Assembly: GCA_023151275.1 (NCBI GenBank)
Contig: JAKLJI010000031.1
Location: 1-35,581, forward strand
DNA from: Bacteroidia bacterium
Lineage (GTDB): Bacteria; Bacteroidota; Bacteroidia; UKL13-3
Reading direction: 5' to 3'
Length of the DNA stretch: 35,581 bases
The translations under genes and the position numbers were made by a program. Every line of letters begins with the position of its first letter. Position 1 is the first letter of the stretch. The notes below the pieces were generated by a model. It saw only the letters and a program-made list of their open reading frames with translations. It had not been told where the DNA came from and made no database searches. Positions 1,431 to 31,594 of the stretch are shown here, one piece after another.

Positions 1431-1690
1431 CCTCTTCATTCCCTTCATCCCTTCATGGATACCAATCCACTTCTAGAGATAAATCCAATTAACTTCTTCC
1501 AAGTATAGCTTAACAGTTCAGAGATAAAAATTGAGAATGAAACCTCTTCATTCCCGTCATCCCTTCATGGTTTCCATTTCACTTCTAGAGATAGATCAAT
1601 TTACTTTCTTCCTTGTAACCATAACAGGTTCCTGGAAAATTGGTGGGGGATCCCTCTTCATTCCCTTCATACCTTCATGGTTAACTTTCT
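1431..1690. repeat. Degenerate 110-112-bp tandem array sharing the 25-nt core
   Basis: Three units start at 1431, 1543 and 1653. Each opens with CC/TCC then the 25-nt CTTCAT core (1434-1458, 1546-1570, 1656-1680). The first two also share CACTTCTAGAGATA about 12 nt after the core. The unit length and the sequence between cores differ from the 97-bp array at 6-275, so only the core is common. The remainder of 1301-1756 contains no convincing gene; a 65-codon open frame at 1531-1728 runs through the repeats and is not credible. Confidence 0.85.
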
Positions 1691-1756
1691 ATATTCTTGG
1701 TAATCCTACGAACAAAACCAATCCTTGATTCTGCTACCATCTCAAGGTTTCAAACT

Positions 1757-2551
1757 TTAATACATCACATCCACACGTCTTGTTGCCCATGTGCTGCCTA
1801 GTAACAAAAATTTATATCCATTCACTTCAAGTACCTTGGAATTTTTCCTTCCTGCCTCCATGCGCATATAGCTGTTCGCTGGAAAACTATACAAGGTTTT
1901 AGAGCTAATTACATATTCACCCCTGTCCCAATGGTTTTGTGGTGGTAAAGCATAACTTACCCACGACAAGTTTCTATCTCTGCTTGCAGAAGGAATTCCT
2001 AAATAAGAAAGAATTATGGTAACGGAATCGTTGTTTAAATCATAGTTCCAACGCATGGGGAAGGTTGCCTTCCGGATGATTTGACCGGAGCAAATGCATA
2101 GCGAATCGTATTTAAGGGCTTCGGGAAGTTGTAATGAGAGCTCAAAGCTATCCAATGTGCTGCTTCCATCGTGTTTGATTAAAAGCATACTACCAAACGG
2201 AGAAGGAGAGGAGCCTTGTTCAAAAACTGCACTTGAATACCTGTTTGAATTTGGTTCCCGCTGAACTTCAATTCCATTTATCCGTAGGCCTTTAAAATCC
2301 GGTATGGTGCTTTTAAGTGGATTAGGGAAAAGGTGCGCCCTGGCTTGCCACCATATTTTACTTAAATCGGCTTCACGGTCGTGCCAGGCTTCTATTTCAA
2401 TTAGTCCATCGTAATTTTTTTCCAAATCACGAAGCAGGTATTCCCTGTAATTTAATGGTTGGTTATTAGGCATACTGGCTGTTTCTGCTTCCTTTTTACA
2501 GGAAACAAAAACAACCAGAGCGCCTAGAAATGTTAGAAACCTAGAGCTCAC
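1757..2551 (-). CDS. Putative lipoprotein encoded with the T9SS protease
   Basis: This 264-residue protein has a short basic N-terminus, a hydrophobic core (about 5-16) and a cysteine at position 18 followed by KKE, consistent with a lipoprotein. I recognise no catalytic domain. The start is a GTG whose first base is the last base of the TAG stop of the upstream protease gene (TAGTG), a one-base stop-start overlap that argues for translational coupling. As last gene of the operon it may be a surface or periplasmic partner of the protease, but that is inference from position only. Confidence 0.75.
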   Translation of the reverse strand: MSSRFLTFLGALVVFVSCKKEAETASMPNNQPLNYREYLLRDLEKNYDGLIEIEAWHDREADLSKIWWQARAHLFPNPLKSTIPDFKGLRINGIEVQREPNSNRYSSAVFEQGSSPSPFGSMLLIKHDGSSTLDSFELSLQLPEALKYDSLCICSGQIIRKATFPMRWNYDLNNDSVTIILSYLGIPSASRDRNLSWVSYALPPQNHWDRGEYVISSKTLYSFPANSYMRMEAGRKNSKVLEVNGYKFLLLGSTWATRRVDVMY

Positions 2552-5500
2552 TACCTACCAGATTTTATTAGGGTGCGACTAACCTGAACTCCGTTCGATT
2601 CAAATTGAATGATATAAAGTCCTTCTGCAAGTGCATTTACAGGAATCAGTTTGCTTTGCTTTCCGGCTTGGGCTTTCCAGGTTTCAGTTTGAAGAACTTG
2701 TCCCTGTATAGTTTGAATACTTACTTGAATGGTGGATGCTTTTGGCAGGTCGATTTCAAGTGTCAATTCATTCACAACAGGGTTTGGATATACTTGAATT
2801 GCATTGAGCATGGAAGCTTCGCGGATTCCGGTATTTACCAGGCCTACGGTAAGGCTTTGCAAGATGCCTTTGCAGTTGTTTGAGCCTGTTTCCAACACTG
2901 TAACCAAGCTGCTTGCGGCAGTCTTTGAAAAAATCAACTGCATGGTGTCTCTTCCATTTGGACTATTCAGTGTGGCATTAGTTGCCGTCCATGCAAAGGT
3001 TGATCCTGAACTTCCATTCACCTTAAAGGTTATGGTATCCCCTTTAACGGCCCATGGTTTAGCTAAAATTTCACTGGTATTTGGACGAGCAAGCTTCTCG
3101 ATTTTCATGGCATCTGAAAGATTCGTACAACCCTTATCACTAACTTCAACAGTGAAACTTCCTGAATCAGTGTAATTAAGTGTTTTCGCGGTTTGACCAT
3201 CCAGTGCGATGCCATTTCTGTACCATTGGTTATTCGCTGCAGCACTTGATGTTAAGGTAAAGCTGCCTCCATCACAAAATGCATTACCGGTTAAGTTTTT
3301 GGTTACAATAGGTTTTGCAGGGGTTGAACCAGCAGCAATGTTTAATACTTCCGATTGCGAATAGCACAAACCATCATAAACCCGAACAAAGTATTTCCCT
3401 TCCATTTTGGTGGTAAAGCTGGTAGCTGCTTGTCCGCTCATCTGCATACTGTCTTTAAACCAAATGAAATTGCTGCCCGCAGTAGTGCTCAAAATTGTGC
3501 TGTCGCCATTGCAGAGGACCAAACCTTTACTGCTACTTACAGTTGGAATGGCAGGACCTGCAAGAACTGTAATCAAATTGGCTTTGTGCAAACTGTCTCT
3601 ACCATTGGCATTGCTTACTGCCAATGCAACGGAGTACGAACCTGCTGTAGGGAAACTCAAAATTGGATTTTTTTCATTCGATACCAATACCCCGTTGAGG
3701 TACCATGACCAACTTGTTACCTGATTCAGCGATGAATCGAGCAGTTGTAGTCTGCCTTTGGCACAAGTGGTATTCAGGACAGGATAAAATGCAGCCACGG
3801 GGTTTGAGGTTAATGTACCTGTAATGGAAATATCATCTAAGAACAAGTTGTTTCCTGCATAACCTTTTTGTTCGAAACGGATGCGAACATTGGCATTGCC
3901 AACATAAGGGCTTAGATTAAGTGTATTGCAAGGGGCACCAACTCCGCCACCACACCAGTTTGCTGCCGTGGTTGGAACAAATGCATTGTCTGTATAGAAA
4001 TTTGAATTGGGTGCAGTAGCAAAATTACCACTTCCATTCTCGCCCAATGCTGCTAGTCGGTTCCAGGTGTTTCCGCAGTTCGTACTTATCATAACCAACA
4101 GGGAATCGGTAGCGGTATTGTCGTAACGGGTATAGGCATGTTTGAAACTAAGACTTGCTGCCGACAAACCCCTGAAATCAAGCGGAGGAGAATTCAAACG
4201 GTCCAGCCCTTCAAAGGTAGGATTGTCATAATTGTTGATTCCCACGCTTGTTGTTCCTGTGCTCAATCCTCCTGTTGTCCAAAAGCGCCAGGTGCTATCT
4301 GCACCAACATTCTGAACACTCCATAGCATTCGTGTGGTTGAATTTGGTTCAAACGATTCAATCAATGGAAGGTTAGCGCCTCCTACTGTAATGTAATCTT
4401 TGAAGTACACAGAATCTACACCAACAACACTGCTAATGGCAAGTGCTACTGGATAAACTCCCGGGGAAGGATAAACAACTGTAGGATTTGCTAAAGTTGA
4501 TGTGCCTGGTGTGGCACCCGGGAAATACCACCTGCGGCTTTGAACACCTGCAGATTGGTCCTGAAATGTAATGGAAGTATTGCTGCAAACACTGCGAAAC
4601 TGCGTGCTGAATGCAGCACTAGGCTTAGGTGTAAAGCCGGAGATTAGCAGTGCAAAAGGTTGTGGGCCTCCAACCAGCGTCTTTTTGTGTCCTATGCTAA
4701 TGGTATAAGTACCGGCTTGAGGTGCGGCAATCAAAACCTGTTCGATATTATCAACCACATTATCACCGGTAGTTGCAGCAGCAGATGGATTTTCAGGATT
4801 CAACTTAAAAGGAAAGAAAACCTGATTATCTGAAATGCGAGTTACACGGATGTCTAAATCGTTTACAAGTGAAGGAGTGCGGTCATTCAAAGCAGCAGTG
4901 CGCACGTTCCCTGAAATATCGGTCCAGCAAATGGTAGCGCGTAAGGGTTTGGTTCCGTCGGTATAAATATTGAATTGGATTGTGCTGGAATTGTTCAAGC
5001 TATTTTCGAATAGCATATTTGAGTTTGAATCATTGATGTGCTGTACAGCTTTTGCGGTATTCATCAATCCCCAACCAAAAGAATAATCCGGTCCGGGGGT
5101 AGTACCGGCTTCATCTGCCGTGTGAATAATTAAACCTTTTAATGTAGAGGAGCGCATGAAGCGACCTTTTACATTATTAAAATGTTGCTGGATAAGCAGG
5201 GCAGAACCACTTGCATTAGGCGTTGCCATAGAGGTTCCGTCCTTGGTTGTATAGTTGGTATTACTTGCTGATCCTGCTGAATAGACATCAACTCCGTTGG
5301 CAACTACATCCGGTTTAATGCGTCCATCATCTGTTGGGCCCCATCCAGAGAATGAACTCATTACAACCTGACCTGAACTGATATAGCCTCCTGGTATAGG
5401 GTTAACTGCTCCAATGGTAATTACATTCTTTCCGTTGGCTGCTCCGCCACTGATGCAATCATAAGGCCCAACTTTGGGTGGCATGGTACCTGTTCCCTGT

Positions 5501-22092: not shown

Positions 22093-22679
22093 CTGAAAAG
22101 AATTGCAGGCTTACGGATTATGCCTGATATTGGCAGTAAAGTTACTTGCACCTAAACGAGTGTGTTCGCCAGAAAAGGATAACCGTATGAACCAAACACA
22201 TCATTGAATGGAAATTGCATAATAAGACGAAGCTAATACAATACCAAACAGCAATACCGAGTCTATGAATGCGCCTGGATTGTTACTTAGGGCTTGCTGT
22301 TAAATTCAGATCTACATTAGATTCGAGGATAAGCCTGGTGGATAGCACTCCTGTAAAGCCTTTCTGGCTTATCTGAAGAAGATGATGCGGAGCTGGATTA
22401 GCGTTTTTGCAAGAATGCTGCAAAGTAAAATCAAATTTTACCCAAAAGAATCGTTTAAAAACCTTGCAGAAGAATTCATTTTTTCTGGCTTATAATCTAC
22501 TCAATCAATAAATTACGCGTTAATCAGCAGACCCTATTTAAATACTTTTCAATCAGCAAATTGAACGTTAATCAGCAAGCCCTACTTAATGGTGTTGACC
22601 AAATTCAAGCACCAAACATGCACTGCAATTTTACGTAGCATTGTGCCGTTTAATAAGCATTCTTATGGATTCAATTTCA
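22093..22679. other. Gene-free stretch with degenerate direct and inverted repeats
   Basis: No convincing gene is visible; the longest short frame noted (22385-22495, 36 codons) has no supporting signal. A 24-nt motif CGTTAATCAGCARRCCCTAY is present at 22518-22541 and 22566-22589 (about 20 of 24 identical, 48 nt apart). An inverted copy of its AGGGCTTGCTG part is at 22289-22299. TTTCTGGCTTAT occurs twice (22361-22372, 22483-22494), and GATAAGCC / GGCTTATC (22328-22335, 22366-22373) form 8-bp arms. AATCAGCAAGC recurs at 24085-24095, on the other side of the transglycosylase gene. Confidence 0.6.
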
Positions 22680-23861: not shown

Positions 23862-23876
23862 GTTCATGTTTGGTTT

Positions 23877-24011
23877 GGGCGTTCCCCCAACGAAGGCCGA
23901 AGGCCTTGTTGGGGGCGGGCTTTCCGGTCCAATCTTTTTTGCCGACCCTAGCCGCCGGCCCCAACCGCGCAAAAAAGGATTTCCCCTGCAATCCCTAACG
24001 CGAGGGGCGTT
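23877..24011. repeat. GC-rich palindromic intergenic repeat
   Basis: Begins GGGCGTTCCCCCAACG and ends near CCCTAACGCGAGGGGCGTT. It holds two hairpins: a near-perfect stem of 23884-23898 with 23902-23915 (one bulged base), and an outer pair TTTTTTGC (23935-23942) with GCAAAAAA (23969-23976). Sequences of this design (GGGCTTTCC..CAATC..GCAAAAAAGGATT..CCCTAACGCG) are familiar to me as dispersed intergenic repeats of Bacteroidota; this is from memory. It differs in composition from both neighbours. The rest of 23862-24119 shows no gene. Confidence 0.7.
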
Positions 24012-24119
24012 GCCAATTGAAATGTATGCCTATGCTCCCAACGCGTTCACACAAATGGTTGGGTTTGTCATAACATTCAATACGAATCAGCAAGCTCCCA
24101 TTACCGCATAAGCACAAAC

Positions 24120-24656
24120 TTACCCTGCTTTTAAAACAGAATCTATTTGATAAGGAAGTCCTGCAATTACACCACCACTATTCATTCCAAAAATCATGTA
24201 GTTCCTATCTATGGTATCTCCAATTGCCCTGCGGTAGCGAATTGTGGCCCCCTGCTCTATATAAACAAAAGCACCTGCTTCTGCATAAAACTCCCCATAG
24301 CCCGCCGTGCCACTATCGCCAATTTCGAGTAATGCACCGCTTTTTACAACCAGACTTCCATTTTGTTTGATGTATAAACCTGCACCATTTTTGATATACG
24401 TTTTGCTAGTGGCATCTAAAACCAAAGCCGCATAAGGCGACACCACCAACATGCTGTTTTTGCTGTATTTTTTGAGGTTATCAACGCCAGTGCAAGATGG
24501 GATATTCATAGGTTCTGATTGAGGTGGACCTTCAACCAGAATAGAATCTGTATTGTGCAAAATAACACCCGGACACATCTCAATTTGGGTTGAATTGGTA
24601 ATGTTTACTTGTCCATAGTTAGCAGTGATTTTTTTGCTATCTTGGTGGAACCACAA
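24120..24656 (-). pseudogene. Fragment of a secreted repeat-rich protein, N-terminus missing
   Basis: The frame encodes about 178 residues reaching a stop at 24120, with no signal peptide and no ATG near its 5' end (only TTG at 24656; the frame is closed by TAA about 15 nt further). The sequence is rich in short beta-strand-like units with alternating G and hydrophobic residues (GAGLYIKQNGSLVVKSGALLEIGD), like a right-handed beta-helix or adhesin segment. It ends DSVLKAG. It looks like the C-terminal part of a larger extracellular protein cut off at about 24660, directly facing the truncated RHS gene. Confidence 0.5.
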
Positions 24657-24661
24657 ATCTC

Positions 24662-27600
24662 GTGTCGATTAATTCACTAGATGGTTATTGTTTCTTTATT
24701 TCAGGAAATACTACCTCAACTGCCAGTACCAGTACGCCATTGAAATTGTATGATAGAAGTGATGAAATAACCAGTCGCTTTTATTATGATGCATTGGGAA
24801 GATTAGTTGTTTCGCAGAATGCCAAACAATTTTATTCCGGAGCTGCTTTAAGTAAAAATGTCTATTCCTATACTTTATATGATGCAATAGGGAGAATAAC
24901 GGAGGTTGGTGAAATTACATCAACATCTCCAATTGAAACTGCTTATAACGGGAGTAAAATGGACCAAAGTCTTTTTAACTCATGGATTAACCAATCTGGT
25001 AGTTCCCGCAAGCAAGTAACCAAAACTTTTTACGATCAGGCAGTATTTACATCTACTCCAATTGGTACAGCCCCATATTTAAGACATCGGGTGAGCAGTA
25101 CTACTTATACGGAAAACTTTACTGGAAATATAAATGCGTACAATTCAGCTACTCATTATGCTTATGATGTTCACGGAAATGTAAACAAAATTGTAAATGA
25201 TTTGCCAGAACTTGAAGTGTATGAAGCACGTTATAAGGTAACTGAATACGAATATGACGTTTTAAGTGGGAAGGTGAACCAGGTTATTTTTCAGAAGAAT
25301 AAAAATGACCAGTTTGCACATCATTATGAATACGATAACCTCAATAGGTTAACCGGTGTATATACCTCACAAAAAAGTTCCGTGTTTTATGGAGAGCAAT
25401 ACCATTCTCTATGGCAAAAAGATGCAAAGTATAGTTATTATTTGCATGGACCATTGGCCAGAATAGAAATAGGAAATGATAGGGTGCAGGGATTGGATTA
25501 TGCCTATAATTTGCAAGGTTGGTTGAAAGGGGTGAATTCTGCCACATTATTAGCTGAACGCGATATGGGTAAAGATGGGTGTGTTACCTGTGCGACAAAT
25601 CTAAACTCAAATTTTGCGAAAGATGAAATGGGTTTTGTTTTGGGTTATTTTGAAGGAGATTATACTCCTGTAACTACTTTTGCTTCAAATGCATATTTTG
25701 ATATATCAACAAAAGACCCTAGCCAGACTAACAGCGAATTGCTGAATGAAAAAAAGGACTTGTTTAATGGCAATATCAGTTATATGACCACCGCAATTGG
25801 CAAGTTTATGGAGGGATTAGATACCAAACCAAATTCAATGGTTTATGGATATGACCAGTTAAATAGGCTATTAAGCACTAAGCGTTTTAACAATATCAAT
25901 GTAATAGATAATTTTTGGGAACAAAGTGGTCAATCGAATACCGATTATAATGAAACATTTAGCTATGATGAAAATGGAAATATTTTATCGTTGCGAAGAA
26001 ATGGAATTGATGCTGGAGGAACCAATGAAATGGATGTGCTGAGGTATCGTTATGAAAGTATTAACGAAAACCAAAAGAAAAATACCAATAAACTACTTTC
26101 AGTTGCTGATGATATTACAAATTATAATTTAACTGGTACTAGCGATTTTCCAAGTGGGCAAAGTTTTATTACTGGTTCACTTAATGGAAATAATTACCAA
26201 TACGATGAAATTGGGAATTTAGTAAAGGATTTACAAGAAGAAATTGAGGAAATTTCATGGAATGTTTATGGAAAGATATCAAAAATTAAGAGAAAAGAAG
26301 AAAGTACAAAACCTGATTTGGAATTTGCATATGATGCATCAGGATATCGAATTAAAAAGATAGTAAAACCTGTAGGAAGTGAGATATGGGATATAACTTA
26401 TTATTTAAGAGATGCACAGGGTAATGTAATGAGTACTTATACCTTGAAAGAGAATTCTCTGAAACAAGATAGACTTTATATTTATGGTTCCTCACGCCTT
26501 GGTGAATTAGTCGCTGATGCAAAGAACCAGGATGTATGCAGTATTTCAATTTCTGAGGATGAGTTATTGAATTCCAGAGAACAAGCCATTGATGGTTTCA
26601 TTCGAAATTTATTTTCTAATTTACAAGATCCTGCATTTACTGAACAAATTGTTTCCTATTGGAATGTAAAATGGAATGACTATTTTAGTCAAACAGGAAC
26701 AATGCATCCAAATACTAACAACATACAAACTCACAAATTTAACTGGAATGCTTGGGTGGAATGGATGTGCAAAATGAAGTGTTATGAAAATTTGAATAGC
26801 GAAGTTTTTGGAATTTGGGAAAATCATTGGAATGGCAGATTGCAAGCGTTTTATAATGGTACAATAACCTGTGGTTATGTAGAATGTCCGGAAACATACA
26901 CTGAATTATTAACTGAATGGACTGTAAACCTAAACAATGAAGTCATTCCACAAATGCACGCGCACAATTTTGTAAGTTCATGTAGTGTTCAAAACAATGT
27001 TTATGTAAAAGGAAGCAGGCGTTATGAATTAAGTAATCATTTGGGGAATGTATTGGCAGTTGTGAGCGACAGAAAAATTGAATCAGACGAAGATTATTTT
27101 TATGCTGGACCGGGCAGTGGTTATAAATTTGAAAATGGAACTTATATAGCAGTTGTTGATGGCGAATACAGACAAGACAGCGGCCCGGATGGAGTTATCA
27201 GTTCTTACTTCGCCGAAGTCATTTCTGCCAATGATTATTATGCTTTTGGTTCATTGATGCCGGGTAGAAGTTTTAGTGGAGGGGGGTATAGGTTCGGGTT
27301 TAATGGGCAGGAACAGGATTGTCAAACCTATGGAGCAGGAAATACCTTTGATTTTGGAGCAAGAGTTTATGATTCTAGATTAGGTCGTTTTTTATCAGTT
27401 GATCCACTTTTAAATGTAAAGGCGGGAAGTAACCTATTTTCTTTCGGAGGTAATTCTCCTTTGAAAAATATTGATCTAGATGGCCTTATAGAAATAGAAA
27501 TTGTAAGGAGAGTATATAATACATCAGGGAAGCTTTTAAGAGTAGAAAGATCTACCACAACAGTTATTACCTGTGAGGATATAGAAGGTATAACGAGAGA

Positions 27601-28237
27601 TAAAGTAACGGTAAATGTTAATTTTGTTGAAACTCCCTATGAAACTATTCATAAATCCATAGCCTATGAAGAAAAGTATTCTGGTTATGAGGTAGTCTCA
27701 GGAGGAAGGACTCCTAGAGAACAATTCAGAGACGATAATCCTGTATCTTATTATTTGGCACAGTTCATGATGAATAATCCTTTAGGAACTGGTAAGATAG
27801 TAGGAGCTACCCTAAATCGAGATTTTTTTACTGGAAAGTATTTAACTAATTTGGATAAAGCAGCGAGTGCATTAAGTGGAGTATTAGATATGTTTAGTCT
27901 GGGCGCAGCAACTGTAAAAGGAAAAGGAGGTCAAGCGGTAATTAAATGGGCTATAGGATGGTCCGCTGATAGGGCTTTTGAGGAAATAGCAGATAGGTTA
28001 GATATTGGAGTAGAGAAAAGTGGGAAATTTGTAGCCTACATGGTGCGTTTCGCAGCTTATGGAGACTATAAAAAGATAACTGAAATTATGACTGCTTTAA
28101 AACTTGGTGTAGATGGAGGGAAAAAGGGTTATGATGCCTACAAAGAAATATTTAGTAAATATGATATAAATTTAGATATCCCAATGAATATGAATGAGGC
28201 TATTAAACAGGAGATTATAAATAATGGCGGTAACTAA
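24662..28237 (+). CDS. RHS repeat protein with variable C-terminal domain, 5'-truncated
   Basis: The frame encodes 1191 residues without a signal peptide, from a GTG at 24662; an in-frame stop lies at 24626-24628. YD-type repeats run through 40-600 (YYDALGRLVV, YEYDNLNRLTG, FSYDENGNIL, FAYDASGYRIK). An unusual insertion fills about 622-785. The RHS core follows (about 788-942: YELSNHLGNVLAV, NDYYAFGSLMPGR, FGFNGQEQD, GARVYDSRLGRFLSVDPL, NIDLDG). After the core a unique domain of about 249 residues extends to the stop, with hydrophobic helices at 1064-1100. In this protein class that position holds the toxin or effector. The N-terminal, secretion-directing part is missing, so the gene may be a remnant or displaced tip, or start elsewhere. 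Confidence 0.85.
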   Translation: MSINSLDGYCFFISGNTTSTASTSTPLKLYDRSDEITSRFYYDALGRLVVSQNAKQFYSGAALSKNVYSYTLYDAIGRITEVGEITSTSPIETAYNGSKMDQSLFNSWINQSGSSRKQVTKTFYDQAVFTSTPIGTAPYLRHRVSSTTYTENFTGNINAYNSATHYAYDVHGNVNKIVNDLPELEVYEARYKVTEYEYDVLSGKVNQVIFQKNKNDQFAHHYEYDNLNRLTGVYTSQKSSVFYGEQYHSLWQKDAKYSYYLHGPLARIEIGNDRVQGLDYAYNLQGWLKGVNSATLLAERDMGKDGCVTCATNLNSNFAKDEMGFVLGYFEGDYTPVTTFASNAYFDISTKDPSQTNSELLNEKKDLFNGNISYMTTAIGKFMEGLDTKPNSMVYGYDQLNRLLSTKRFNNINVIDNFWEQSGQSNTDYNETFSYDENGNILSLRRNGIDAGGTNEMDVLRYRYESINENQKKNTNKLLSVADDITNYNLTGTSDFPSGQSFITGSLNGNNYQYDEIGNLVKDLQEEIEEISWNVYGKISKIKRKEESTKPDLEFAYDASGYRIKKIVKPVGSEIWDITYYLRDAQGNVMSTYTLKENSLKQDRLYIYGSSRLGELVADAKNQDVCSISISEDELLNSREQAIDGFIRNLFSNLQDPAFTEQIVSYWNVKWNDYFSQTGTMHPNTNNIQTHKFNWNAWVEWMCKMKCYENLNSEVFGIWENHWNGRLQAFYNGTITCGYVECPETYTELLTEWTVNLNNEVIPQMHAHNFVSSCSVQNNVYVKGSRRYELSNHLGNVLAVVSDRKIESDEDYFYAGPGSGYKFENGTYIAVVDGEYRQDSGPDGVISSYFAEVISANDYYAFGSLMPGRSFSGGGYRFGFNGQEQDCQTYGAGNTFDFGARVYDSRLGRFLSVDPLLNVKAGSNLFSFGGNSPLKNIDLDGLIEIEIVRRVYNTSGKLLRVERSTTTVITCEDIEGITRDKVTVNVNFVETPYETIHKSIAYEEKYSGYEVVSGGRTPREQFRDDNPVSYYLAQFMMNNPLGTGKIVGATLNRDFFTGKYLTNLDKAASALSGVLDMFSLGAATVKGKGGQAVIKWAIGWSADRAFEEIADRLDIGVEKSGKFVAYMVRFAAYGDYKKITEIMTALKLGVDGGKKGYDAYKEIFSKYDINLDIPMNMNEAIKQEIINNGGN

Positions 28238-28766
28238 AATGTCAAGCTATAAAAGTTCAGATATTAAGGCATACTTGTCCAATGAAGTATTGGTTATTGA
28301 AAGAAACGGAATGATATCAAGTATGAAAATTTCAATGATGATGATTTTTTTGTTTTGGTTGGTGTTTTTTTTAGTTGAACTGTTAAGGAAAAATAGTATT
28401 AGTGTTTTTGTTTTAATTATTTTACTGCTCTTTATTGGATACAATCTTTATCATGTTATTAAGGAGATTTCTTGGATGCGTTCTTTTAAAAGACTCATTT
28501 TAGAGCCATCTAATATGATAATTAAGATCAATAATAAATCACATACATATAAAAACCTAACAATTAAATTTATAGAATTTTATGGAGTAACAGAAACTAG
28601 TGGAGTGCCTTTTAAACGGTCGAAGATTGTAGTTAATTTTGAATTAGACAATATGAACAATAGGATAATAATTGATCGAGAGGCTCGTCAGAAAAAAGTT
28701 ACTGTTTTAAAAGAAATATTAGTCCATTTAGGAATTAGATATGAAGAATTGTATATTGGTAAGTAA
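28224..28766 (+). CDS. Two-TM membrane protein, candidate immunity protein
   Basis: The 180-residue product starts at an ATG at 28224, overlapping the RHS stop by 14 nt; an alternative ATG at 28239 starts one base after that stop. It has two membrane segments (about 34-54 and 60-78) joined by a short Lys/Arg-Asn loop, then a soluble domain of about 100 residues with strand-rich character (LILEPSNMIIKINN, IVVNFELDN, RIIIDRE). I recognise no family. Position directly behind a variable RHS C-terminus fits an immunity protein for a membrane-acting toxin. That role is inference from arrangement. Confidence 0.7.
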   Translation: MAVTKMSSYKSSDIKAYLSNEVLVIERNGMISSMKISMMMIFLFWLVFFLVELLRKNSISVFVLIILLLFIGYNLYHVIKEISWMRSFKRLILEPSNMIIKINNKSHTYKNLTIKFIEFYGVTETSGVPFKRSKIVVNFELDNMNNRIIIDREARQKKVTVLKEILVHLGIRYEELYIGK

Positions 28767-29056: not shown

Positions 29057-31594
29057 ATGATAATCCATATCAAACACCTCTTAACCCTTCTCTTTTTTAG
29101 CTTATTTCTGCTAAAAAATGCAAGTGCCATTCATACCATCACTTCTTTTTCGCCGGTATCTGCTTACCCGCGGGCTGTGGTTACCATTAAGGGCACAAAT
29201 TTGGCACCAACTGCGGGAGCTGTGCATGTGTTTTTTGGTAATGCCAAAGCACAGTTATTGGCTGTTTACAATGATTCATTAAAGGTTAGGGTTCCATTTG
29301 GTGCAACAGTAGCACCCATTACCATTTCAGTAAATGGGTTTACAGTGGCTACCTTAAATCACTTTGTACCTTCCTATCCGGCAAGTACCGCTACACCTAC
29401 CAATCTCAATTTCTGGCCAACAGAAGGCAATTTGAATTTGAGTTATACGGGGCAAAGATTGAGGCAATATGCCTCTGCGGATATTGATAATGATGGGAAG
29501 TTGGACTTGGTTAGTACGGTAGATTTCATATCTACAAGTACAAATGGGACTTTGAATAATCCTTATTACAATAGATTAAGAGTGTTTAAAAATATTTCAG
29601 GAAACGGAGGTGGAATAAGCAATAGTTTAATTGACCCAGATTTTTTGGACTTGGTAGGGGATTCAACGGTTTATTCATACAAGTTTAGTGCATTATGGGG
29701 ATTCAAAGTGGGTGATATCAATAGTGATGGTTTTTTGGATATTGTTGCAAGAATGGATTCAGGAATTACCGTTTTTATTAATAAAGGATTGGGGTTTTCC
29801 CATACAATGTTCCACAGAATTCACATACAACATCCTTTATTAGATTCAAAGCCACTTGCAAGTTTTTCTGAGCAATTTGCTTTAAATGATTTTGATGGAA
29901 ATGGGAAGTTAGATATCTTGCTTTTAACTGCGAGAAATATCATGTTGCTTTCAAATAATTCGATTGGAACAACTGTTAATCTTACAAATTTTACAATTAA
30001 TACAATAAGGACCTTTCCAAATGTGTCGCCCTACTATTCCATATTTGTAACTGGGTTAAATAGTGATAATAAGCCAGATATATTTTATCATTATAATAGT
30101 TCAAATAATGACTCAATATTTTTTCTTACCAATGAATTCGGAATTAACTCAATGGTTCTGGATTCCGCAGCATTCTCTGGACCAAGTTTTATAAAAACAG
30201 TACCTCAACCCAAAACAAGTCAAGTTTGTGATTTGAATAATGATGGACTTATGGATATTGCAACAGTATATCAAAACTTTAATGGATTCATACAAAATGG
30301 GAGTGGTACAGTTATTAATTTCCTTCCTGTTAGCTCTGTTGCCCAAGGTTCACCATTGAATCAAATGTTATTGGGTGATATTACAGGAGATGGAATTGTT
30401 GATATTGTTACTGCTTGGGGTGGCGGTATTGTAGTAAGAAGAAACAAACATCAAGCTTTTTCAATTTTAAGTGCAGATTCATTTACCAATACCACATATA
30501 GCAGACCTACTTATGGTTTACAGGAAATGGCAAATACTTTATTTGATTTAGACAATGATGGCAGACCGGATTTGGTTACTACAAGACAAGTTATCACTGG
30601 AGTTACTGCCACCAATCCCACAGCCAATTTGTTGATTTCTAGAAATACCTATGCACTCAGAACTCCAACAGTTAATGTGTCTTCTGCAACTTATAATAAT
30701 TTAAGTCCAACCTCTATCCGAATCACCATCAGTACTCCGGGAAATGGAACAGGAAGGGCAGTATTAATAAAATCAGGAACCGCTGCTATTACCAGCTTTC
30801 CAGTTAATTATACTTATTATGCCGCCACCCAGGTTTTTGGAACTTCACCCACCTTAGCAGATGGCTCAAGAGTAGTTTATGTGGGAGATACCAATGTGGT
30901 TGATATAACAGGATTGAGTCCATTTACCACTTATAGAATTGCCATAGTTGAAATGAATGGTTGGGCCAATGCAACTACCTTTTTAACAACAGGTGTTTAT
31001 ACGCTAACTGGAACAACCTTACCAGTAAGCTGGCTCAGTTTCGAAGGTAATAAAACCCAAGAAGGCATAGAACTATTTTGGAAAACAGCATCAGAAAAAA
31101 ACAATGATTATTTTGAAGTACAAAGAAGCTTCAATATGGAAAATTGGCAAACAATTGGAAAGGTAAAAGGCAGAGGAACTACCAATACAACTACACACTA
31201 TTCCTATACAGACAATGAAGCCATTTTAACAGCCAACAACGAAAACTATCCTGTTGTCTATTACCGTTTAAAACAAGTAGACTATGATGGAAGTACAGAC
31301 TATTCAACCGCCATCTCATTCGATCTTTACCAAAATGAAGAAGTAAAAGAAGAATTCGTAGTAGAAGTTTACCCGGTTCCATTTAACGAAACTCTCACAC
31401 TTCAAACCAACGCCGAAAGCGGTTTTGATTATTCCATTATAGACAACCAAGGCTTAGAAGTTTTAAAAGGAAGTTCAAAAAATAAAACACATGAACTTTA
31501 TACTTCAGAGTTTGGGAATGGAATGTATGTGGTTTTGGTGAAGAATTCGGTAACACAAGAATTGAGAACGGTGAAAGTGTTGAAAGTGGAATAG
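29057..31594 (+). CDS. T9SS-secreted TIG/VCBS-repeat protein
   Basis: The 845-residue protein has a signal peptide (about 1-24, ending NASA), an IPT/TIG Ig-like domain (about 26-104), then seven FG-GAP/VCBS-type calcium loops in which D-x-D-x-D-G recurs at about 142, 220, 278, 336, 392, 441 and 497, suggesting a seven-bladed integrin-alpha-like propeller. A fibronectin-like part follows (about 540-660, ending LSPFTTYRIAIVEMN), then a beta domain with WKTASEKNNDYFEVQRS, and a T9SS sorting domain (about 770-845, starting VYPVPF). Expected at the cell surface, possibly in adhesion or carbohydrate binding. No catalytic residues recognised. Confidence 0.9.
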   Translation: MIIHIKHLLTLLFFSLFLLKNASAIHTITSFSPVSAYPRAVVTIKGTNLAPTAGAVHVFFGNAKAQLLAVYNDSLKVRVPFGATVAPITISVNGFTVATLNHFVPSYPASTATPTNLNFWPTEGNLNLSYTGQRLRQYASADIDNDGKLDLVSTVDFISTSTNGTLNNPYYNRLRVFKNISGNGGGISNSLIDPDFLDLVGDSTVYSYKFSALWGFKVGDINSDGFLDIVARMDSGITVFINKGLGFSHTMFHRIHIQHPLLDSKPLASFSEQFALNDFDGNGKLDILLLTARNIMLLSNNSIGTTVNLTNFTINTIRTFPNVSPYYSIFVTGLNSDNKPDIFYHYNSSNNDSIFFLTNEFGINSMVLDSAAFSGPSFIKTVPQPKTSQVCDLNNDGLMDIATVYQNFNGFIQNGSGTVINFLPVSSVAQGSPLNQMLLGDITGDGIVDIVTAWGGGIVVRRNKHQAFSILSADSFTNTTYSRPTYGLQEMANTLFDLDNDGRPDLVTTRQVITGVTATNPTANLLISRNTYALRTPTVNVSSATYNNLSPTSIRITISTPGNGTGRAVLIKSGTAAITSFPVNYTYYAATQVFGTSPTLADGSRVVYVGDTNVVDITGLSPFTTYRIAIVEMNGWANATTFLTTGVYTLTGTTLPVSWLSFEGNKTQEGIELFWKTASEKNNDYFEVQRSFNMENWQTIGKVKGRGTTNTTTHYSYTDNEAILTANNENYPVVYYRLKQVDYDGSTDYSTAISFDLYQNEEVKEEFVVEVYPVPFNETLTLQTNAESGFDYSIIDNQGLEVLKGSSKNKTHELYTSEFGNGMYVVLVKNSVTQELRTVKVLKVE

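Follow-up and report, generated by a model that had tools for sequence, protein, structure and literature searches.

The stretch of DNA analysed here, called the window, comprises 35,581 nucleotides of contig JAKLJI010000031.1 from a Bacteroidia bacterium (assembly GCA_023151275.1), and its positions 24,662 to 28,766 hold the 3' part of an RHS gene followed by a small gene for a predicted membrane protein. An earlier note, made from the letters alone, had read the two as a candidate novel pair, in which the RHS C-terminus (here the tip) is a membrane-targeting effector and the next gene product (here the partner) is its immunity protein. The context of the two genes supports a candidate toxin/immunity pair at a variable RHS C-terminus, and the unit is probably a displaced polymorphic RHS toxin cassette, which combines a tip of a new and rare toxin family with a two-helix membrane immunity protein. 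Its elements are the following.

24662-28237, plus strand: RHS open reading frame (ORF), GTG start, 1191 aa, truncated at its 5' end, no signal peptide visible by eye
27236-27487, plus strand: RHS repeat-associated core, residues 859-942 (TIGR03696, Rhs_assc_core, E = 1.1e-12)
27488-28234, plus strand: variable C-terminal toxin region (the tip), residues 943-1191, 249 aa, with relatives in three other loci
27488-27751, plus strand: N-terminal part of the tip, residues ~943-1030, partly beta in a low-confidence model, with E-D-I-x-G-I-x-R in four loci
27797-27922, plus strand: PT-TG-like pre-toxin stretch, residues 1046-1087, PF14449 match below the curated cut-off, adjoining an invariant NPLGTG
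27923-28234, plus strand: presumed warhead, residues 1088-1191, ~104 aa, helical in a low-confidence model, few invariant positions
28224-28766, plus strand: predicted immunity protein (the partner), 180 aa, two membrane helices and then a part with a T-E-T-S-G-x-P motif
28329-28385, plus strand: transmembrane segment 1 of the partner, residues 36-54, by hydropathy
28404-28460, plus strand: transmembrane segment 2 of the partner, residues 61-79, by hydropathy

The reading frames on which the earlier note was built, 1191 and 180 aa long, were recovered, as was the end of the core at residue 942. The core scored 48.3 bits against TIGR03696 (NCBIfam cut-off 32.5), and because this match ends at residue 942 the tip is taken as residues 943-1191. 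As called, the RHS stop and the partner start overlap by 14 nucleotides (nt); the second methionine of the partner lies one nt past the toxin stop and is aligned with the start of one partner relative, so that the partner start is uncertain and the overlap may not be real. The description of the tip as about 249 residues with no recognised domain held, since neither tip nor partner has a match above the curated cut-offs of Pfam and NCBIfam. For both, PHROGs gave nothing better than E = 0.05 and PADLOC nothing better than E = 1, searches of PDB sequences with tip, partner and their profiles returned weak matches only, which were judged to be chance, and neither viral contigs (searched with both profiles) nor plasmids held a match. 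As far as family libraries and text searches tell (no sequence search of the literature being among them), tip and partner are new at the family level.

The tip does not travel with the core that carries it. It was found in none of the 57 other genomes of its family that were searched, and a tip profile run over 64 genomes of the order, all of the same family, returned only the source genome and a single further match, in genome G1032 (E = 0.0088), which was dropped as chance, since its ORF, presumably a MiaB-type enzyme, is not an RHS gene. The window was also compared with 20 hand-picked, non-random RHS loci, and this panel contained 46 ORFs matching core residues 841-942 (BLAST, E = 1e-4), drawn from 19 of the 20 loci and the window. 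A tip of at least 100 aa was present in 41 of these 46, and behind 38 of the 41 an ORF of 80 aa or more began on the same strand at -60 to +150 nt, although ORFs were called mechanically and some of these downstream genes may be spurious. All-against-all BLAST of the 41 tips (E = 1e-3) gave six related pairs, to none of which the window tip belongs and none of which lies within the source genome, with its 14 tips of that length; among the other ORFs of the compared RHS loci, the window tip had no BLAST match below E = 0.5. Conservation of the tip along with its core, which had been named as speaking against a toxin/immunity pair, was thus not found: the tip is absent from the other family genomes searched and unrelated by BLAST to the 40 other tips of the panel. 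In the source genome, groups of RHS core-tip-immunity units were observed on contigs C23, C20 and C33 (loci L045, L046 and L048), and one of the tips there is TseH-like (L046:17227-17859; PF25218, E = 3.7e-28).

A partly matching site was found in another genus (genome G042, contig C61, locus L062), where the RHS core is above the TIGR03696 cut-off and 51-60% identical to that of the window. The gene concerned lies outside the pair in the window.

29057-31594, plus strand: FG-GAP / type IX secretion system (T9SS) sorting-domain gene, downstream context

A 47% relative of this gene (L062:809-3334) stands on the same side of the RHS tip in G042, and the genes on the other side differ, so that synteny is partial only. 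The L062 tip is unrelated to the window tip (it has an AHH-nuclease hint below threshold, E = 0.14). The first following ORF that reaches 80 aa encodes a protein of 213 aa with no hydrophobic segment above the cut used throughout for membrane segments (Kyte-Doolittle 1.6); homology of the window partner to this protein was considered and is unproven (BLASTP E = 0.90). This comparison of sequences supports a swap of tip and partner at the partly matching site. An FG-GAP/T9SS gene directly behind an RHS tip-immunity unit is thereby observed in two genera and may mark a cassette insertion site.

Relatives of the tip are few. Among 395 genomes of the class, G318 (34% identity) and G296 (33%) carry one, and a profile of three rows run over GTDB genome contigs found Flavobacterium profundi (NZ_VDCZ01000015.1, the G296 locus) and a Flavobacterium metagenome-assembled genome (MAG; NZ_JAIXYH010000089.1). 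Alignment to the relatives in two other families is near full-length at ~33% identity. A phylum-wide search of 395 genomes added only G296 to the source genome, 199 Flavobacterium genomes gave G296 only, and 70 genomes of the family of G318 gave G318 only; since these repeated searches added nothing, the tip family is regarded as rare and patchy. TIGR03696 precedes the relatives and scores 52.9 bits in G318 and 35.3 in the MAG; in F. profundi, where the ORF as called starts inside the core, it reaches 30.3, just below the cut-off of 32.5. The ORFs bearing these tips are short (592, 326 and 211 aa over the three loci), and so these may be displaced cassettes too; in the MAG the reading frame of the tip is broken. 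Around the tip relative of G318, two adjoining RHS ORFs (L066:2-961 and 1486-3264), which are almost the same in their first parts and diverge at their ends, form a cassette array.

A small two-segment protein follows the tip in all four loci. The proteins of the three relatives have 107 aa (G318), 160 aa (F. profundi) and 158 aa (MAG), each with two hydrophobic segments above the cut, the spacing of which differs in G318. Those of F. profundi and the MAG are related to each other (35%), and the proteins of G318 and F. profundi show no recognisable kinship (BLASTP E = 5.7). Homology of the window partner to the Flavobacterium proteins is unproven though the layout is alike (BLASTP E = 0.23, hhalign probability 2.4%), and the same holds for the G318 protein (BLASTP E = 1.4). 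A bacterial PH-like or YcxB-like fold was also considered as a candidate.

The partner has the two membrane segments that had been claimed for it: residues 36-54 and 61-79 reach Kyte-Doolittle values of 2.53 and 2.39, and AlphaFold2, run on the single sequence, resolved only two long helices in this region (pLDDT ~82-87). Its TETSGxP motif lies outside the membrane helices and is common to its two nearest relatives. When 97 genomes, the source genome included, were searched with the partner, seven had a match at E = 0.01; besides the source genome, G043 (E = 2e-15) and G008 (E = 1.7e-10) were convincing, and four matches at E = 0.006-0.008 were dropped as chance (frames of 561-864 aa in G005, G018 and G079, internal stops in G057). 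A partner profile run over the 395 genomes of the class found the source genome, G008 and G133. The G008 relative lies near a CdiI_3 immunity gene (E = 2.2e-26), with one ORF in between, and this region (L009:7951-9862) is a possible immunity island with no RHS core in the 19 kb examined. In G133 (L070:7503-9881), the partner relative is flanked by two DNA-identical copies of a gene of 244 aa.

Within the tip, PF14449 (PT-TG) matched residues 1046-1087 with 13.0 bits (E = 0.11) against a cut-off of 23.5; its match to the F. profundi relative, at 20.2 bits (E = 0.00057), is also below that cut-off, and no PT-TG match was listed for the G318 tip or the pieces of the MAG tip. The label PT-TG-like therefore denotes a resemblance only. 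Because the match coincides with the hydrophobic stretch near residues 1064-1100, this stretch is probably a pre-toxin region, and membrane action is not shown by the stretch itself. The part in front of it (residues ~943-1030) is a candidate entry domain. Over the four loci 33 positions are invariant, 27 of them in the first 145 residues and six in the last 104, and no histidine or cysteine is kept in all four. AlphaFold2 on a four-row alignment (pLDDT 43.5) gave a first part that is partly beta and helices over the last hundred or so residues; a PDB fold search with this model had 95 matches at E = 10, with none left at E = 0.001, and at such a pLDDT its outcome was set aside as uninformative. 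The few invariant warhead residues, together with the lack of a conserved histidine or cysteine and of a glycine zipper, would suit a non-enzymatic warhead without proving it.

The RHS ORF appears as a 5'-truncated piece of a much longer type of RHS gene, a point that the earlier note had missed. Among the best twelve other RHS matches in the family, eleven lie in frames of 1,599-4,869 residues, and the twelfth (446 residues) is in the source genome. Six RHS frames of the family with 3,011-3,699 aa, some of them cut by locus ends, match the window only from position 24740 onward, and their first 1,296-2,332 residues have no counterpart in it. A signal-peptide-like sequence was seen by eye at the start of four of these six, and none was visible in the window ORF, likewise by eye and with no predictor used; the first 19-26 residues of the window ORF had no match among the RHS relatives found. 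Immediately upstream lie two pieces of a gene that is present elsewhere in the source genome, on contig C66.

24125-24640, minus strand: inverted internal fragment of a 1942-residue open frame of contig C66, 85% DNA and 90% protein identity, abutting the RHS 5' end
23874-24130, minus strand: fragment from the 3' end of that C66 gene and the flank behind it, carrying a Flavo-1 RNA, 95% DNA identity

The two fragments are joined, and the part of the C66 gene between them is missing. The frame at 24120-24656 (minus strand) was rejected as a gene of its own, being an internal piece of the C66 gene, and an assembly collapse at the junction was rejected because copies with 85% and 95% DNA identity are too diverged; the contig may be chimeric at this point. 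The missing front part, the junction with inverted debris and the lack of a visible signal peptide lead us to a displaced ('orphan') cassette, and from its sequence the unit looks like this and not like a working effector. No second RHS core gene was seen on the window contig. Elsewhere the source genome has two RHS genes (1468 and 1519 aa) with signal-peptide-like starts, judged by eye, and 14 other core ORFs of 123-901 aa, three of which reach a contig end. As to the surroundings, the Flavo-1 RNA (RF01705, 23909-24006, minus strand, E = 2e-8) lies within the C66-type debris, and another Flavo-1 follows closely on the 3' end of the intact C66 gene, so that this RNA may accompany the 3' ends of such genes. 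Positions 22285-22555 are one of 27 matches in the genome to a dispersed repeat of ~250 bp (67-100% identity), another copy of which lies between RHS ORFs on contig C20.

Our data suggest a model whereby a rearrangement cut the 3' end of an RHS gene (core and tip), together with the immunity gene, off from the front of that gene. The cassette is likely to stay silent for as long as it is not linked to an exported RHS gene; recombination via the conserved RHS core would provide this link and fuse the tip to an exported RHS protein, for which the two genes with signal-peptide-like starts could serve. On contact with a neighbour cell the tip would be released, its first part and the PT-TG-like stretch would help entry, and the helical warhead would act at the cytoplasmic membrane, in the simplest case by insertion and loss of the membrane potential; the partner, in the inner membrane of siblings, would block the warhead there. 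Membrane targeting by the tip, as predicted, is plausible. Mainly because the partner is a predicted membrane protein, and also because no histidine or cysteine is conserved over the four loci, we infer, in what we consider an evenly balanced judgement, an action of the warhead on or at the cytoplasmic membrane, with the partner blocking it at this site.

Several observations weigh against this reading and have to be set beside its support. On the supporting side, neighbours with at least two hydrophobic segments occur behind three of three tip relatives versus 4 of 37 downstream genes in the panel without the window (Fisher p = 0.0035, or 0.02 when the two related Flavobacterium partners are counted once), a background test that was post hoc and made on a small, self-picked panel. 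A Pfam scan of 10 of the 41 panel tips, picked mainly for hydrophobic partners and run with no control, was given no weight: the four with partners of at least two segments comprised two that looked lipid-active (an alpha/beta hydrolase and a sub-threshold match to phospholipase A2) and two without a match, and phospholipase A2 was again matched below threshold by another scanned tip, for which no partner had been counted. The exact pairing of this tip with this partner was seen once only, and the proteins next to the other tips show no recognisable kinship with the window partner. Around the partner relatives in the three other genomes, no RHS core lies nearby (19, 11.3 and 18 kb; tblastn, E = 0.1), which makes a fixed pair less likely and agrees with orphan immunity genes; as these relatives are rare, the partner looks like orphan immunity and not like a widespread RHS-independent gene. 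In the tip itself, no 19-residue window exceeds the hydropathy cut (the best, residues 1067-1085, reaches 1.37, and the peaks of the relatives stay below 1.0), a GxxxGxxxG glycine zipper is present neither in the window tip nor in its relatives, and the warhead fold is modelled with low confidence (tip pLDDT 43.5). Moreover, PT-TG domains are described as linker regions of unknown function in many bacterial toxins, and in the nuclease EsaD they precede a soluble nuclease (PMC10941976, PMC10653861). The proposals of the earlier note accordingly fared unevenly: a variable candidate toxin region linked to the core and a partner with two predicted membrane segments stand, the hydrophobic helices near residues 1064-1100 dissolve into a stretch that falls short of the cut within the weak PT-TG match, and membrane targeting keeps its membrane partner but gains no clear transmembrane segment or zipper from the tip. 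Co-occurrence behind different RHS cores holds for the tip relatives with their two-segment neighbours and not for the partner itself, and the downstream gene, which the note had said should not be found widely away from RHS genes, is indeed found without a core in three of three other genomes, yet is rare.

The same features bear on a reading in which the toxin has a soluble target, as an enzyme or binder in the cytoplasm or periplasm, and the partner is a membrane-tethered inhibitor that binds it through residues ~90-180 or blocks its entry at the inner membrane. We regard this as a lesser possibility, to be taken seriously. A PT-TG-like stretch in front of a nuclease has its precedent in EsaD, the tip has no strong transmembrane segments, the conserved TETSGxP motif sits outside the membrane helices, and Zhang et al. 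2012 (PMC3482391) propose for two-helix immunity proteins that they may stop a toxin from entering at the membrane; against it stand the few invariant warhead residues, the lack of a histidine or cysteine conserved over four loci, and the recurrence of two-helix partners in four of four loci despite no recognisable kinship across lineages.

Two other readings concern the state of the unit. A short but complete and functional RHS effector, beginning at 24662 or close to it and leaving the cell by some unrecognised route, seems improbable to us: the frame is open over 1191 codons, and two RHS genes of the source genome, with 1468 and 1519 aa, are also below the length of the giants, but these have signal-peptide-like starts and the window ORF, by eye, has none, its frame starts at the junction, next to the inverted debris, and none of the RHS relatives found aligns with its first 19-26 residues. 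Still less should be expected of a decaying relic, with a pair that selection no longer maintains or a downstream gene whose role is not immunity. The frames of tip and partner are both open in the window, and the tip retains ~33% identity over nearly its whole length to relatives in two other families; in favour of a relic are the 5' truncation with its adjoining debris, the broken frame of the tip copy in the Flavobacterium MAG and the short RHS ORFs of the three other tips (592, 326 and 211 aa).

We return to a probable displaced RHS toxin cassette, a kind of system that is well known, carrying a tip toxin family for which, as far as libraries and texts tell, no description was found. Polymorphic RHS systems (PMC3482391) share with the window an RHS core, a variable tip, a small adjacent gene and tips that differ among relatives; the window tip and partner differ in having no family model above cut-off. 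Immunity proteins are there said to be soluble save for a few, Imm-CdiI and Imm17 being the exceptions with two helices (Zhang et al. 2012, PMC3482391). For an orphan Rhs toxin of Salmonella LT2 that lacks signals for initiation and export, Koskiniemi et al. 2014 (PMC3967940) give evidence that it acquires both expression and delivery when it recombines with the main rhs gene. The window resembles it as an Rhs fragment with toxin and immunity gene in which an export signal is absent or, here, not visible; in contrast, recombination is evidenced there, downstream of a main rhs gene, and is inferred here, on a contig with no second core gene.

Membrane-acting toxins offer further parallels. The contact-dependent inhibition (CDI) ionophores and their CdiI proteins (Halvorsen et al. 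2024, PMC11630599) are like the window in a two-part tip, a helical toxin domain, two-helix immunity and diverse partners per toxin class, whereas the window tip has no glycine zipper, its partner has 180 aa with a C-terminal part versus 72-100 aa, and its carrier is RHS rather than CdiA; the likeness is one of description. Glycine-zipper toxins of this type (CDI ionophores, EsxX) are marked by a five-helix membrane bundle and by depolarisation of target cells, and the window tip is helical by prediction only (pLDDT 43.5). Tse5 (PMC10684867) is likewise an RHS-borne C-terminal toxin, with membrane action shown there and proposed here; it is an effector of the type VI secretion system, and no RHS or pore-forming toxin came up when PDB sequences were searched with the tip and its profile, the presence of Tse5 in that copy of the PDB being unchecked. 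In the EsxX/ExiCD system (PMC12744356), membrane immunity also occurs in strains without the toxin, and distinct immunity families serve one toxin, as appears here; it differs in its type VII secretion system LXG carrier, its glycine-zipper toxin and its Gram-positive host. The CDI ionophores and EsxX serve as models for the proposed action of the pair; because the zipper is absent and the likeness is one of description, we claim membership in neither family. TANFOR toxins (PMC7073777) match the window in their Bacteroidota hosts, large carriers, nearby T9SS-type genes and diverse immunity behind one toxin; the toxin studied there is a DNase, and TANFOR (TIGR02542) was found neither in the four related RHS proteins scanned nor in the window ORF, which lacks its front part.

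Tentatively, and with less confidence than we place in the cassette itself, we suggest that protection arose or was swapped repeatedly, such that one membrane-acting toxin family came to be met in each lineage by a two-helix partner of a different sequence family, of 180 aa here, 158-160 aa in Flavobacterium and 107 aa in G318. If this is true, selection would keep the place of protection, the membrane, and not a particular fold. The source genome can be seen as a reservoir of such RHS cassettes. Should the membrane be where the tip acts, it would add a zipper-free, apparently non-enzymatic warhead to the RHS arsenal of the Bacteroidota, and the three types of partner behind one toxin would be a small natural test set for membrane immunity.

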